From Actinomycetospora soli (GTDB lineage: Bacteria > Actinomycetota > Actinomycetes > Mycobacteriales > Pseudonocardiaceae): 64,000 nt of DNA. Below the pieces are notes generated by a model. That model searched no databases, was not told the DNA's origin, and saw only the letters and a list, made by a program, of their open reading frames with translations. The stretch covers positions 186,001 to 250,000 of the forward strand of contig NZ_JAJNDA010000009.1 in the NCBI RefSeq assembly GCF_021026295.1. The letters run 5' to 3'. Positions 23,344-29,683 of the stretch are shown here, piece after piece. The position numbers were made by a program, and so were the translations under genes. Position 1 is the stretch's first letter. Each line of letters begins with the position of its first letter.

Positions 23344-23521
23344 CGGTTCCTCACGCTACGGGCGGCGGGTGACCGTCGCGGGTCGCATCCGGAGCAACCG
23401 GACGGCTGCCAGGTGTCCGCCGCTTCCCGATCCGGACCCGGGGCAAACGCGACGTGACCGGTGGATGACGTTACGCAGCCGTGGCTGGCTCCCGAACGAG
23501 TGGTGCGGTCACGATCCGTCG

Positions 23522-23947
23522 GTGCTCACTCGCTCACTGTTCATCAGCATGCTCCTCGCTGCCCTGATCGGACTCGTGCCGGCGGCCGCGTGCGCCGCTC
23601 CCGCTGCGCCCGCCGTCGGGACCGTGACATCCGTCGCATCGGCCGTTCCCGGGTCCGACTCCGGCCTGCCCGTGCGGGCGCTCTCGAGCCTGCCGTCCCA
23701 GGCGACCGACACGGTCCGGCTGATCCAGCGGGGCGGGCCGTACCCGTACAGCCAGGACGGGACCGTGTTCGGCAACCGCGAGGGCGTGCTCCCGGCCCGG
23801 TCGAGCGGCTACTACCACGAGTACACGGTGATCACGCCGGGCTCGTCGGACCGTGGCGCCCGACGGATCGTCACCGGCTCGTCGGCCGAGTACTACTACA
23901 CGGGTGATCACTACGAGAGCTTCGTCGTCGTGGACGTGAGCCGATGA
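23522..23947 (+). CDS. Secreted guanyl-specific ribonuclease (RNase Sa/barnase family)
   Basis: From GTG 23522 the product has a signal peptide (about 27 residues, ending CAAP) and a mature domain matching RNase Sa: PYSQDG, GYYHEYTVITPG with the catalytic Glu, RGARRIVTG with the catalytic Arg, and YYTGDHY with the catalytic His. The mature part has no cysteine, so the disulphide that ties the ends of RNase Sa together is absent. ATG 23465 is an alternative start that would bury the signal peptide. Its stop overlaps the barstar start in ATGA. Confidence 0.88.
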   Translation: MLTRSLFISMLLAALIGLVPAAACAAPAAPAVGTVTSVASAVPGSDSGLPVRALSSLPSQATDTVRLIQRGGPYPYSQDGTVFGNREGVLPARSSGYYHEYTVITPGSSDRGARRIVTGSSAEYYYTGDHYESFVVVDVSR

Positions 23948-24270
23948 CCGATCTGCACGCGGCCGCGACCCGCGCCCGGGAACGGGCGCGGACCGTCGGC
24001 GTGGTGGCCGAGGTCGCCGACAAGCAGTCCACCCTCACGGCGATCGGCCGGGCCCTGCAGTTCCCCGGGTACGTCGCCGCGAACCTCGACGCGCTCGAGG
24101 AGAGCGTCCGCGACCTGTCGTGGCTGCCCGCGGGCCCGGTCGAGCTCGTCTGGGTCGACGGCCCGCTGCGCGACGCGGACCCGCCGACCCACCGGGCCAT
24201 CCAGGAGATCCTCGACGGGGCGGCCGGCACGGAGGGCGATCGTCCGTTCCGGGTCACGCGTGTAGGGTGA
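23944..24270 (+). CDS. Barstar-family ribonuclease inhibitor
   Basis: A 108-residue protein with barstar features: the QSTLTAIGRALQFPGYVAANLDALEESVRDL segment corresponds to the inhibitory helix and loop of barstar, in which an Asn-Leu-Asp-Ala stretch enters the ribonuclease active site. It has no signal peptide and should stay in the cytoplasm to neutralise the co-translated RNase before export. Coupling is by ATGA overlap. The stop lies inside the region where the next gene's leader peptide begins. Confidence 0.85.
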   Translation: MTDLHAAATRARERARTVGVVAEVADKQSTLTAIGRALQFPGYVAANLDALEESVRDLSWLPAGPVELVWVDGPLRDADPPTHRAIQEILDGAAGTEGDRPFRVTRVG

Positions 24271-24275
24271 TCGCC

Positions 24276-24341
24276 GTGCAGCGCTGGTACCGGTTTACGT
24301 GCCCGGCCCGGGAGGGGTCGGCGGGTAGACCGCTGCGCTAG
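24276..24341 (+). CDS. Attenuator leader peptide with Trp-Tyr-Arg-Phe
   Basis: A 21-codon frame from GTG 24276 to TAG 24339 encodes MQRWYRFTC and a tail, with Trp, Tyr and Phe within four consecutive codons. AGGG lies about nine bases upstream; GTG 24267 is an alternative start. It stands directly in front of the DAHP synthase gene and is followed by alternative RNA stems. Clustered codons for the end-product amino acids before a biosynthetic gene are the signature of ribosome-mediated attenuation. Confidence 0.75.
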   Translation: MQRWYRFTCPAREGSAGRPLR

Positions 24342-24389
24342 ACCCCATCCCGCGAGCCGTTCCCGGCTCGCGGTGCACGTCGGCGGGTC
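24314..24389 (+). promoter_or_regulatory. Putative attenuator stems before DAHP synthase
   Basis: GGGGTC (24314-24319) can pair with GACCCC (24341-24346), with an inner GCGG/CCGC helix. GACCC can instead pair with GGGTC at 24385-24389, enclosing the hairpin. A strong stem, 24350-24359 with 24364-24373 (CCGCGAGCCG), follows the leader stop. GTCGGCGGGT occurs twice, at 24317 and 24379. There is no T tract, so the switch may act on termination or on translation. Confidence 0.5.
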
Positions 24390-24419
24390 GGGTCCGGTTC
24401 CTTCTCCCTGGAGCCCCCG

Positions 24420-25475
24420 ATGACCGCCCTGATCGACGCCGGACCGCTCGACGGTGCCCGGACCGTCGCCGTCACGCCCCTGCCCTCACCCGCCCTGCTG
24501 CGGCACGAACTGCCCGCCTCCGACCGGGTCGCGGACGCCGTCCGTCGTGGCCGCGCCGGCGCCGAGGCGATCCTGCGCGGCGAGGACGACCGCCTGCTCG
24601 TGGTCGTCGGCCCGTGCTCGATCCACGACGTCGACGCCGCGCGGGAGTACGGCGCCCGCCTGGCCGCCGAGGCCGAGCGGCACGCCGATCGCCTGCACGT
24701 CGTCATGCGGACCTACTTCGAGAAGCCGCGCTCCACGGTCGGCTGGAAGGGTCTGATCAACGACCCGGGCCTGGACGGCTCGTTCGACGTCGCCCGCGGG
24801 CTGCGGACCGCCCGGTCGCTCATGCTCGACCTGGCCGAGCTCGGGCTGCCCCTCGGCTGCGAGTTCCTCGACCCGATCACCCCGCAGTACCTCGCCGACC
24901 TCGTCTCCTGGGGCTCGATCGGCGCGCGCACCGCGGCGAGCCAGGTCCACCGCCAGCTCGCGAGCGGGCTGTCGATGCCGATCGGGATCAAGAACGGGAC
25001 CGACGGCGACGTCGGGGTCGCGGTCGACGCGATCGGGGCGGCCGCGGCGCCGCACGCGTTCATGGGCGTCACGCCCGAGGGCCTGGCGGGGCTCATCACC
25101 ACCACGGGGAACGCCGACGCGCACCTGATCCTGCGCGGCGGCTCGTCCGGCACCAACTACGACGAGGCCTCGGTGGCCGCGGCCTGCGCGGCGCTGCGGA
25201 CGGCGGGGCACGGCGGCCGGGTCGTCGTCGACGCCAGCCACGGCAACTCGGGCAAGGACCACCGTCGCCAGCCCGCCGTCGTCGCCGACCTCGCGCGGCA
25301 GCGCGCCGCGGGCGGGCCGGTGGCCGGCGTGATGGTCGAGAGCTTCCTCGTCGAGGGTCGCCAGGCGATCGGGCCGGACATGGTGCGCGGGCGCAGCGTC
25401 ACCGACGCCTGCGTCGGGTGGGACACGACGGTGTCGCTGCTGGACGAGCTCGCGTCAGCGGTGGCCCACCGCTGA
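24420..25475 (+). CDS. 3-Deoxy-7-phosphoheptulonate synthase, class I (AroF/G/H type)
   Basis: A 351-residue DAHP synthase condensing phosphoenolpyruvate and erythrose 4-phosphate, the first shikimate-pathway step. Class I motifs are clear: LLVVVGPCSIHD, RTYFEKPRSTVGWKGL, GTDGDVGVA, LRGGSSGTNYD and DASHGNSGKD for the metal ligands. ATG 24420 follows the leader region. Most actinobacteria rely on a class II enzyme, so this is probably an additional isozyme. The Trp/Tyr/Phe leader suggests that expression follows aromatic amino acid supply. The stop lies within the hairpin repeat at 25454. Confidence 0.93.
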   Translation: MTALIDAGPLDGARTVAVTPLPSPALLRHELPASDRVADAVRRGRAGAEAILRGEDDRLLVVVGPCSIHDVDAAREYGARLAAEAERHADRLHVVMRTYFEKPRSTVGWKGLINDPGLDGSFDVARGLRTARSLMLDLAELGLPLGCEFLDPITPQYLADLVSWGSIGARTAASQVHRQLASGLSMPIGIKNGTDGDVGVAVDAIGAAAAPHAFMGVTPEGLAGLITTTGNADAHLILRGGSSGTNYDEASVAAACAALRTAGHGGRVVVDASHGNSGKDHRRQPAVVADLARQRAAGGPVAGVMVESFLVEGRQAIGPDMVRGRSVTDACVGWDTTVSLLDELASAVAHR

Positions 25476-25606: not shown

Positions 25607-27475
25607 ATGACAGCACCCGAGGCGCCCGAGGAGCTCGTGCTCGCCGGCGAGTTCCCGACGCCGGCGCGCGACGCGTGGCGCGAGCTCGTCGCGGGCGTGC
25701 TCGCGAAGTCCGGGCGCGAGGTCGACCCGGCCGACGCCGAGGCGGCGCTCGCCACCGCCACCGACGACGGGTTCGGCATCGCCGCGCTCTACACCGCCGA
25801 CGACGCCCCCGACGTGCCCGCCGGGGTGCCGGGACTCCCGCCGTTCACGCGGGCGTCCCGGCCGGAGGGGCACGTCGCCGACGGCTGGTACCGGCGGCAG
25901 CGCCACGCGCTCACCGACCTGGAGTCGGCGCACGACGTCGTGATGGCCGAGCTGGAGAACGGCGTCTCCTCGCTGTGGCTGGTGCTCGGCGAGGCCGGCG
26001 GCCCGGCCGTCGACGCGCTGCCCCGCCTGCTCGACGGCGTGTTCCTCGACCTCGCCCCGATCGCGCTCGAGGCCGGTCGGGACACCCCGGACGCCGCCGC
26101 CGCGCTGCTGGCGCTCGCCGACGGGAACGGCGTGACCAGCGCCCTCGGCGGGTCGCTCGGCTACGACCCGCTCCTGGCCCGGACGCGGGGCGGGGAGCCG
26201 CTGACCGACGCGTACCGGTCGGCGATGGTCGAGCACGCCCGGACCGCCGCGGAGAAGCACCCGAGCCTCGCCACGGTCGTCGCCGACGGCCTGCCCTTCC
26301 ACGAGGCGGGGGGCTCCGACGGGCAGGAGCTCGGCGCCGCCCTGGCCACCGGCATCCACGCCGTCCGTCTGCTGAACGACGCCGGGCTGTCGGTCGACGA
26401 CGCCTTCGCCCGCGTCGAGTTCCGCCTCGCCGCGACCGCCGACCAGTTCGCCACGCTCGCGAAGCTGCGGGCGGCCCGCCGCTGCTGGGACCGGATCGGC
26501 TCGGTCGCGGGCGCCTCCGCGGCCGCCCGCGCGATGCGCACCCACGCCGTCACCTCCCCGGCGATGCTCACCGGCCGCGACCCCTGGGTGAACATCCTGC
26601 GCACCACGGTCGCCGCCGTCGGGGCCGGCCTCGGCGGCGCCGACGCGGTGACGGTGCTGCCGTTCGACTCCGTCCTCGGCCTGCCCGACGACTTCTCCCG
26701 CCGCGTCGCCCGCAACACCCAGGCGCTGCTGCTCGAGGAGTCCCACCTCGCGCACGTCATCGACCCGGCCGGCGGCTCCTGGTACGTCGAGTCGCTCACC
26801 GACGCCCTCGCCCACGCCGCGTGGGACGTCTTCACCGGCATCGAGCGCGACGGCGGGATCGAGGGCGTTCTCGACGACGGGTCGCTGGCGGCGGCGCTCG
26901 AGGAGACCTGGACCGCGCGCGCCGACCGGATCGCGCACCGCACGGACCCGATCACCGGCGTCAGCGAGTTCCCGAACCTGCACGAGACCCTGCCGACCCG
27001 CACCGCCCCGCCGTCGGGAACGGGGGACGCCGAGGGCGGCCTGCCGCGGCGGCGCTACGCGCAGGTCTTCGAGGACCTGCGTGACCGGGCCGACGCCGCG
27101 TCGTCGCGCCCCACCGCGTTCCTCGCGACCCTCGGGTCGCTCGCGCAGTACACCGCGCGCGTCTCCTTCGCGACGAACCTGCTGCACGCCGGCGGCATCG
27201 ACGTGACCGAGGGGCCGGGCGGGACCGACGTCGACGAGATCGTGTCCGCGTTCCGGTCGGCCGGGACGACCGCGGCCGTGATCGCCTCCTCGGACAAGGT
27301 CTACGCCGAGCACGCGGCGCCGCTCGCGCGGGCGCTGGCCGAGGCCGGGGCGACCCGGATCGTGCTGGCCGGATCGCCGAGGTCGCTGGACGACGACGCC
27401 CTGACCGGGCATCTGTACACCGGGTGCGACGCCGCGGCGCTGCTCACCGACCTGCTCGACGAGCTGGGGGCCTGA
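25607..27475 (+). CDS. mutA: Methylmalonyl-CoA mutase small subunit
   Basis: A 622-residue protein with the mutase TIM-barrel (LPPFTRAS, GGSLGYDPL, ARNTQALLLEESHL) and a degenerate C-terminal domain. That domain lacks the DxHxxG cobalamin-ligand motif, as expected for the non-catalytic subunit of the heterodimer. It supports MutB in converting (R)-methylmalonyl-CoA and succinyl-CoA. ATG 25607 follows the promoter region; its stop is three bases before mutB. I saw no cobalamin riboswitch upstream. Confidence 0.95.
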   Translation: MTAPEAPEELVLAGEFPTPARDAWRELVAGVLAKSGREVDPADAEAALATATDDGFGIAALYTADDAPDVPAGVPGLPPFTRASRPEGHVADGWYRRQRHALTDLESAHDVVMAELENGVSSLWLVLGEAGGPAVDALPRLLDGVFLDLAPIALEAGRDTPDAAAALLALADGNGVTSALGGSLGYDPLLARTRGGEPLTDAYRSAMVEHARTAAEKHPSLATVVADGLPFHEAGGSDGQELGAALATGIHAVRLLNDAGLSVDDAFARVEFRLAATADQFATLAKLRAARRCWDRIGSVAGASAAARAMRTHAVTSPAMLTGRDPWVNILRTTVAAVGAGLGGADAVTVLPFDSVLGLPDDFSRRVARNTQALLLEESHLAHVIDPAGGSWYVESLTDALAHAAWDVFTGIERDGGIEGVLDDGSLAAALEETWTARADRIAHRTDPITGVSEFPNLHETLPTRTAPPSGTGDAEGGLPRRRYAQVFEDLRDRADAASSRPTAFLATLGSLAQYTARVSFATNLLHAGGIDVTEGPGGTDVDEIVSAFRSAGTTAAVIASSDKVYAEHAAPLARALAEAGATRIVLAGSPRSLDDDALTGHLYTGCDAAALLTDLLDELGA

Positions 27476-27478
27476 ACC

Positions 27479-29683
27479 ATGAGCATCGGATCGTTCGCCG
27501 ACGTCGAGCTCGGCACGCCCGCCGGGGACGGCGACTGGACGGCGGCGCTGGAGGAGGCGACCGGCAAGGACGCCGACGACCTGCTCTGGGAGACCCCCGA
27601 GGGCATCGGCGTCAAGCCGCTCTACACGGCGGCCGACACCGAGGGCCTCGACTTCCTGGGGACGCTGCCCGGGCTCCCGCCGTTCCTGCGCGGGCCCTAC
27701 CCGACGATGTACCGCACCCAGCCGTGGACGGTGCGCCAGTACGCCGGGTTCTCCACCGCCAAGGAGTCGAACGCGTTCTACCGGCGCAACCTCGCCGCCG
27801 GGCAGAAGGGCCTGTCGGTCGCGTTCGACCTGCCGACGCACCGCGGGTACGACTCCGACAACCCGCGCGTGTCGGGCGACGTCGGGATGGCCGGCGTGTC
27901 GATCGACTCGATCCTCGACATGCGGCAGCTCTTCGACGGCATCCCGCTGGACCGGATGTCGGTGTCGATGACCATGAACGGGGCCGTGCTCCCCGTGATG
28001 GCGCTCTACGTGGCCGCGGCCGAGGAGCAGGGCGTCGCGCCCGAGCAGCTCGCCGGGACCATCCAGAACGACATCCTCAAGGAGTTCATGGTCCGCAACA
28101 CCTACATCTACCCGCCGAAGCCGTCGATGCAGATCATCTCCGACATCTTCGCGTTCACCTCGCAGAAGATGCCGAAGTTCAACTCGATCTCCATCTCCGG
28201 CTACCACATCCAGGAGGCCGGGGCCTCGGCCGACCTGGAGCTCGCGTACACCCTCGCCGACGGCGTGGAGTACCTGCGGGCCGGGCGGGACGCCGGGCTC
28301 GACGTCGACAAGTTCGCGCCTCGGTTGTCGTTCTTCTGGGGCATCGGCATGAACTACTTCATGGAGATCGCCAAGATGCGGGCCGCGCGCCTGCTCTGGG
28401 CGAAGCTCGTGAAGGGGTTCGGGGCGAAGAACGACAAGTCGCTGTCGCTGCGGACCCACTCGCAGACCTCGGGCTGGTCGTTGACCGCGCAGGACGTCTA
28501 CAACAACGTCGTCCGCACCTGCATCGAGGCGATGGCCGCGACCCAGGGCCACACCCAGTCGCTGCACACGAACGCCCTCGACGAGGCGCTCGCGCTGCCC
28601 ACCGACTTCTCCGCCCGCATCGCCCGCAACACCCAGCTGCTGCTGCAGCAGGAGTCGGGCACGACCCGGACCGTGGACCCCTGGGGCGGCTCGGCGTACG
28701 TCGAGCGCCTGACCCGGGAGCTCGCGGGCCGGGCCTGGGCGCACATCGAGGAGGTCGAGAACACCGGCGGCATGGCGAAGGCCATCGACGAGGGCCTCCC
28801 GAAGATGCGCATCGAGGAGGCCGCGGCCCGCACGCAGGCGCGGATCGACTCCGGGCGCCAGGCGCTCATCGGGGTCAACAAGTACCCGCTGCTCGGCGGC
28901 GAGGACGTCGAGGTGCTCAAGGTCGACAACGCCGACGTGCTGCGCCAGCAGGTCGCGCGGCTCGAGGAGCTGCGGGACGGCCGGGACGGTGACGCCGTCG
29001 AGTCGGCGCTCCACGCCCTGACGAACGCCGCGTCCGAGGCGGCCGAGGGGAAGCGCGGCTCCGACCTCGACGGCAACCTGCTCAAGCTCGCGATCGACGC
29101 CGCCCGGGTGCACGCCTCGGTCGGCGAGATCTCCGACGCGCTGGAGAAGGTCTACGGCCGGCACCGCTCGGACGTCCGGACGATCTCCGGGGTCTACCGT
29201 GACGAGGTGGGCGAGAACTCCGCGGTGGAGCAGGCGCGGTCGGCGGCCGCCGCGTTCGAGGAGGCCGAGGGACGTCGTCCCCGCATCCTCGTCGCGAAGA
29301 TGGGTCAGGACGGCCACGACCGCGGCCAGAAGGTGATCGCCACCGCGTTCGCCGACCTCGGCTTCGACGTCGACGTGGGCCCGCTGTTCCAGACACCCGA
29401 GGAGGTCGCGCGCCAGGCCGTCGAGGCCGACGTGCACGTCGTCGGGGTGTCGTCGCTCGCGGCCGGGCACCTCACGCTCGTGCCGGCGCTGCGTGACGCG
29501 CTGGCCGAGCTGGGCGCCTCGGAGATCCTCATCGTGGCCGGTGGCGTGATCCCGCCCGGCGACTACGACGAGCTCTACGCGGGCGGCGCGACGGCGATCT
29601 TCGGTCCGGGCACCGTGATCGCCGACGCGGCGACGGAGCTGCTGGGGTCGCTGCGGGAGAAGCTGGGGCACTCGGCGTCCTGA
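27479..29683 (+). CDS. mutB: Methylmalonyl-CoA mutase large, catalytic subunit
   Basis: A 734-residue protein with the barrel motif [17 protein letters not shown] and [11 protein letters not shown] for substrate binding, and a C-terminal B12 domain with GQDGHDRG, in which His is the lower cobalt ligand. It rearranges methylmalonyl-CoA to succinyl-CoA in propionate and odd-chain catabolism or, in reverse, supplies polyketide and methyl-branched lipid precursors. It forms an operon with mutA. The chaperone gene meaB is 4 kb downstream. Confidence 0.96.

Follow-up and report, generated by a model that had tools for sequence, protein, structure and literature searches.

What controls the class I DAHP synthase gene of Actinomycetospora soli, and what part does the short reading frame directly ahead of it play? 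The locus lies in a 64,000-nucleotide stretch of DNA, the whole of which is called the window here and to which all coordinates refer. All aromatic amino acids, and many actinobacterial natural products, derive from the pathway that DAHP synthase opens. Our comparison with relatives suggests that the frame encodes a leader peptide that raises DAHP synthase when aromatic amino acids are scarce. We consider it likely that the leader acts as a ribosome-mediated attenuator, which would report charged Trp-, Tyr- and Phe-tRNA and control the class I enzyme. In the window, this control probably acts on translation initiation, not on termination.

The leader ORF, its promoter and its neighbours

The DAHP synthase gene occupies 24420-25475 on the + strand (TIGR00034, 466.6 bits; PF00793, 281.7 bits) and is the single class I copy of the 6.5 Mb source genome, which carries one class II DAHP synthase at another site. 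The nearest named relatives of the locus are from Actinomycetospora, and the DAHP synthase of L001 has 91% identity. Downstream on the same strand, two adjoining ORFs at 25607-29683 presumably resemble methylmalonyl-CoA mutase subunits. Upstream, about 78 nt separate the leader stop from the DAHP synthase start, and the leader region has the following elements.

24263-24268, + strand: -10 box TAGGGT (TAnnnT), its end 7 nt upstream of the leader ORF; transcription predicted to begin at the GTG
24276-24341, + strand: leader ORF VQRWYRFTCPAREGSAGRPLR, GTG start, TAG stop at 24339-24341, 21 sense codons
24285-24296, + strand: putative sensing codons TGG TAC CGG TTT (Trp, Tyr, Arg, Phe), from window sequence and codon bias

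Both the 21-codon frame ahead of the class I gene and its Trp, Tyr and Phe codons had been pointed out in the first-pass annotation, and both are present in the window sequence. The start common to relatives is GTG 24276, and GTG 24267, at which the frame had been begun earlier, is a second in-frame alternative.

A TAnnnT box about 7 nt before a start codon is the geometry of leaderless transcripts. Among 161 loci tallied, the distance from the end of this box to the start codon was 7 nt in 120, 6 nt in 31 and 8 nt in 6. Such conserved spacing argues for a leaderless leader with its own promoter, and implies that transcription in the window would start at the GTG. A secreted-type ribonuclease gene (PF00545) and then a barstar-family inhibitor gene (PF01337) lie at 23369-24270. 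The barstar stop TGA (24268-24270) stands 5 nt before the leader start, within the nine bases given earlier. Transcription of the leader by readthrough from this RNase operon had been suggested; we rejected it as unnecessary, because the leader has a conserved -10 box and barstar is confined to some Actinomycetospora. A tblastn search of L001-L080 and L168-L175 found barstar in L001 and L168-L172 only, and RNase/barstar genes precede DAHP synthase only in some loci of this genus.

Distribution and codons of the leader family

Conservation was assessed in 225 upstream regions, comprising the window, 78 loci of an 80-locus set (L077 and L080 were excluded because their upstream DNA was too short), 86 class-wide loci and 60 family loci; the set takes in non-actinobacteria and paralogues, and some species are represented twice. 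We found an ORF of 10-40 codons in which W, Y and F fall inside 8 codons in 158 of the 225 regions, and 157 of these 158 had a TAnnnT -10 box 6-8 nt before the start. Dinucleotide shuffles (n = 2250) yielded 11 such ORFs, none of which also had the box, and the reverse strand of the same regions yielded none (0/225). Comparison of the upstream regions of relatives, proposed earlier as a check, showed conserved aromatic leader codons, and on this basis the leader is a member of a widespread actinobacterial family.

The trio leader was present in 68 of the 78 loci and in 52 of the 60 family loci; among the 86 class-wide loci, 36 had the trio ORF with the box, and 37 if the box was not demanded. 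For main-copy Pseudonocardiaceae loci (L198-L249) the count was 51/52, L245 being the exception, and more distant class I paralogues had a leader in just one of eight. The one with a leader is L252 (leader sequence MTITYRWFEWPAASRRHAI), in contrast to the remaining seven. Ten of the 78 loci were misses. Eight of them (L029, L040, L043, L049, L060, L066, L072 and L079) belong to one actinobacterial MAG and otherwise to Rokubacteria, Deltaproteobacteria, Chloroflexi and Planctomycetota, and the remaining two (L055 and L065) have the leader FAFWF, without Tyr. In the class search, the leader was mostly absent from the large family f17, and the leader of L137 reads W-Y-Y.

Moreover, a leader lineage of RRYxYF type lacks Trp in 12 loci, to which L104 and L129, having just Y and F, can be added. 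These leaders, with Tyr and Phe kept and Trp lost (RRYPYF type), belong to L097, L104, L111, L112, L129, L130, L132-L134, L138, L144, L146, L151 and L155, and it looks as if the set of sensed amino acids had changed in this lineage.

Codons were tallied in 135 distinct leaders, which were selected by the trio except for 70 loci (two of those without Tyr). Order and number of aromatic residues varied, with YWF in 48 leaders, YFWF in 41, WYF in 8, YWFFW in 8, and 14 further types. The last Phe codon was TTT in 132 of the 135 leaders; TTT:TTC was 5:353 in 70 DAHP synthase genes. Tyr codons in leaders were TAT in 107 cases and TAC in 41; TAT:TAC was 1:360 in the 70 genes. Six window genes had ratios of 0:69 for TTT:TTC and 1:48 for TAT:TAC, and the window leader itself has TAC for Tyr and TTT for Phe. 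A rare, wobble-read codon should heighten the sensitivity of stalling; alternatively, the preference for TTT and TAT may come from a need for unpaired A/U-rich RNA. The codon content of the family suggests that Trp, Tyr and Phe may all be sensed by one leader.

The leader is dedicated to class I DAHP synthase. A sequence-only model built from 21 leaders gave one match in each of 54 among 120 family genomes; in 53 of these genomes a class I DAHP synthase match followed at 48-151 nt, and in the remaining one the leader match was at a contig end. Some family genomes with a more distant class I gene only (e.g. G410, G424 and G441) had no leader match. In the genus, the model found one copy in 8 of 18 genomes, and a protein search found class I DAHP synthase in 7 of 17 genomes, all seven with the leader; the eighth leader-bearing genome is 59% complete, below the completeness limit of the protein search. 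This patchy occurrence of enzyme and leader suggests that they were gained or lost together. In the same genome, a search of 1.5 kb upstream of other aromatic genes found no such leader ORF before the class II DAHP synthase and pheA matches or before a second chorismate-binding gene; the trpE-like gene, whose frame is open to the locus edge, lay outside this search. The earlier proposal that one leader replaces separate isozymes is unsupported, since the genome also has the class II enzyme.

RNA helices and the proposed switch

The RNA from 24276 to 24440 has a more stable fold than shuffled versions of it (z -2.98, 2/200 equally good), and the following segments and helices were delimited.

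24302-24310, + strand: segment A, CCCGGCCCG, right after the last aromatic codon, with conserved CGGCC core
24315-24321, + strand: segment A', GGGTCGG, complementary to A (hairpin A:A' within the ORF), assigned from complementarity alone
24314-24346, + strand: helix P2, GGGGTC 24314-24319 with GACCCC 24341-24346, from the swap test
24350-24359 with 24364-24373, + strand: hairpin P3 (B:C), 10 bp, from folds, arms near-invariant in relatives
24362-24371 with 24383-24392, + strand: helix C:D, CCCGGCTCGC with GCGGGTCGGG, from the swap test (z -9.3)
24382-24401 with 24410-24428, + strand: hairpin S (D:E), from fold and swap test

A motif search placed the CGGCC core at +10 relative to the last aromatic codon in most sequences (63/69 Pseudonocardiaceae, 24/25 Nocardiaceae). 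Hairpin S covers the likely Shine-Dalgarno sequence GGAG (24410-24413) and the ATG, and C:D excludes both P3 and the outer part of this hairpin.

In the swap test, the duplex energy of true partners was compared with that of permuted partners in 2000 permutations. Kinship was ignored and groups were drawn by us; within these terms, three helices were partner-specific in the main group of 67 Pseudonocardiaceae-type sequences without inserted terminator, namely P2 (-12.4 vs -10.8, z -7.5), C:D (-19.3 vs -16.5) and D:E (-17.9 vs -15.5, z -6.7), each with 0/2000. Eleven control pairs in the same sequences gave z from -1.7 to +2.3. In this group, the inner A:B helix had no partner specificity (1544/2000) and A:D gave 235/2000. 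A:A' paired worse than permuted partners in both Pseudonocardiaceae (1999/2000) and Nocardiaceae (2000/2000). In the 25 Nocardiaceae, D:E (17/2000) and A:B (43/2000) scored, and P2 (1876/2000) and C:D (213/2000) were unsupported. The counts per 2000 were 5 for A:B, 4 for B:C, 6 for C:D and 2 for D:E in mycobacteria; 31 for A:B, 30 for C:D and 20 for D:E in the Nonomuraea type; 0 for A:B and 1616 for D:E in Micromonosporaceae; 1868 for A:B in Kribbella; and 513 for A:B and 17 for C:D in Micrococcaceae. Mutually exclusive helices linking the ORF to an expression signal (P2, C:D and D:E) are thus partner-specific in Pseudonocardiaceae, and support for them is weaker in Nocardiaceae.

These tests divide the stems put forward in the first-pass annotation. 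The pairing of GGGGTC with GACCCC holds within P2 in the family of the window, but not in Nocardiaceae, and the 10-bp hairpin is present as P3. The pairing of the post-stop GACCC with a distal GGGTC (24385-24389) showed no partner preference (805/2000 in the 67 Pseudonocardiaceae, 863/2000 in the 25 Nocardiaceae) and was dropped; in the 67 Pseudonocardiaceae, the distal GGGTC prefers the 3' hairpin arm (C:D) and the Shine-Dalgarno region (D:E) instead, with 0/2000 each. Of attenuation by alternative stems, a leader peptide with P2, C:D and D:E is retained, and termination is probably to be replaced by translation initiation.

A switch can be proposed from these pairings. Transcription would start at the leader GTG, as judged from the -10 spacing, and translation would be leaderless. 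With ample aromatic amino acids, the ribosome would reach the stop codon and cover the 3' strand of P2, and A:A' would reform behind it; B would then take C (P3), leaving D free for the Shine-Dalgarno and start region (S), and the gene would be OFF. A shortage of Trp, Tyr or Phe would instead stall the ribosome at codons for these amino acids, ahead of A, so that P2 could form and A could leave A' and occupy B (or D). D would then be occupied by C or A, S could not fully close, and the gene would be ON.

The strength of this switch was computed with a ribosome mask to +8 of the A-site codon (to +13 was also tried) for the stalled state, relative to a ribosome at the stop. Stalling cut the cost of opening the start region by 2.96 (first codon) and 2.76 (last codon) kcal/mol in 66 Pseudonocardiaceae and by 3.97 and 3.63 kcal/mol in 25 Nocardiaceae; for shuffled UTRs the drops were 0.94 and 0.73 kcal/mol. 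The effect was positive in 51/66 Pseudonocardiaceae (opposite sign in 6-7) and in 23/25 Nocardiaceae. In terminator-bearing groups the first-codon drop was 0.6-1.9 kcal/mol, and in Kribbella the last-codon value was -1.1 kcal/mol, with opposite sign in 6/9. The computed direction agrees with induction by starvation. In the window itself, the cost was 17.3 with the ribosome at the stop, against 16.8 with a stall at the first aromatic codon and 13.8 with one at the last. OFF is thus still favoured at equilibrium, and the computed switch is weak. In addition, forcing C:D costs about 15 kcal/mol, and an inner Shine-Dalgarno hairpin (24396-24415) persists in that state. Co-transcriptional folding would have to assist switching in the window.

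Output of the leader and comparison with known systems

Partner-specific P2, C:D and D:E, together with the lack of a convincing terminator, point to control of translation initiation. Classical transcription attenuation, in which stalling of the ribosome lets RNA polymerase read through a leader terminator, would have precedent in the aroR-aroF case of C. glutamicum, which is transcriptional according to the portions of its reports at hand. Moreover, mycobacterial, Micromonospora, Kribbella, Arthrobacter-type and Nonomuraea-type relatives have a U-tailed hairpin in the interval from leader to gene, with terminator stems that are partner-specific in five groups (0-3/2000). A simple scan of the window also flagged a single terminator-like site, at 24384-24396, with GTTCCTTCTC after it. 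However, this sole match between leader and gene is weak, having 5 pairs with just 3 G-C, and its T-rich tail is, by inspection, not kept in sister Actinomycetospora; no convincing intrinsic terminator was found in this interval, and a U-tailed hairpin is missing from most Pseudonocardiaceae leaders seen. For the window, we therefore regard termination control as improbable. When ten terminator-bearing leaders were folded, the terminator stem was present whatever the ribosome position, and no pairing emerged as an anti-terminator; signals for the ORF tail or the leader 5' part with the 3' arm were weak and unreliable, some of the intervals being empty.

Two further explanations dispense with codon sensing. 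Arrest by the nascent peptide itself, as in TnaC, could account for the fairly conserved C-terminal half of the leader peptide (RPAPGGS.G type), but this tail overlaps A, A' and P2, so that RNA pairing accounts for it, and the aromatic cluster varies freely in order and number, which codon sensing fits better. We give this mechanism very little credence. No more plausible is a leaderless upstream ORF without sensing function, whose translation would simply deliver ribosomes to the gene through coupling or reinitiation. Reinitiation after leader genes has been suggested in actinobacteria (PMC4833913), but ribosomes would have to bridge about 78 nt in this locus, and there would be no need for aromatic codons that include the rare TTT and TAT. 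Codon sensing with output on translation initiation thus remains our preferred reading.

The closest known system, the aroR-aroF attenuator of C. glutamicum, was reportedly described by Neshat et al. in 2014. Like the window, it has an aromatic-codon leader peptide ahead of a class I DAHP synthase; in its available descriptions it has Phe-Tyr-Phe and an intrinsic terminator, whereas the window has W, Y and F, a Shine-Dalgarno hairpin and no convincing terminator. We found a leader candidate in 13 of 14 Corynebacterium loci, 12 of the 14 being of FYF type with the same anatomy; five of the 13 candidates have Trp before FYF and most have no Trp. These relatives share with the window the -10 spacing, the GGCTCCGGG/CCCGGAGCC pair and the following hairpin. 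Judged through them, the window leader has the anatomy of the aroR-aroF type and lacks its terminator output. As far as the excerpted reports go, Phe limitation raises aroR-aroF transcription, and Tyr supply is without effect despite the Tyr codon of the leader (PMC11802643, PMC4046766, PMC7356990).

Leaderless leader peptides trpL, leuL and ilvL are described for S. lividans in the sections available (PMC8079986), and polycysteine leader attenuators have been reported in mycobacteria. These resemble the window in having a short ORF with pathway-product codons before the gene, several without typical terminator, but they concern different amino acids and genes; in the part available, the leader list of S. 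lividans includes no aromatic DAHP synthase leader. The proteobacterial aroF, aroH, pheA and trp attenuators, in a Shewanella table (PMC2659441), share leader-peptide control of DAHP synthase; in the same excerpt, unlike the window, each responds to one amino acid, with separate isozymes and transcription termination. A 2005 survey states, in its available text, that there were no conserved RNA structures before actinobacterial Phe and Tyr genes (PMC1262725). Rfam covariance models (riboswitch and T-box) had no match in the window at gathering threshold, in 9 loci, or in 24200-24480 at E up to 1. A full-text literature search, with subscription papers mostly beyond its reach, did not turn up any description of a Trp-Tyr-Phe leader ahead of a class I DAHP synthase. 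Leader-peptide attenuation itself is known; new here are the three-residue form, its breadth, and the probable translational output in the family of the window.

The U-tailed terminator between B and C in other lineages indicates the same leader with a different output. Tentatively, and with somewhat less than even confidence, we propose that one leader integrates the charging of three aromatic tRNAs, any shortage giving ON, through A':A, A:B/P2, B:C, C:D and D:E to the Shine-Dalgarno sequence, and that in the course of actinobacterial evolution the codons were kept but the output changed, with a hairpin controlling translation initiation taking the place of a transcription terminator nested between B and C. 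Such modular platform swaps are known for riboswitches; the literature searched held none for a leader-peptide attenuator of DAHP synthase. If true, a single three-product leader would explain how the level of one isozyme can be set without three feedback-specific copies. The leader would be a ready engineering target for aromatic overproduction, and its family a testable case of an attenuator exchanging transcriptional for translational output.

In three Pseudonocardiaceae loci, L071, L244 and L246, a hairpin is still inserted between B and C, which makes them possible intermediates of the change of output.
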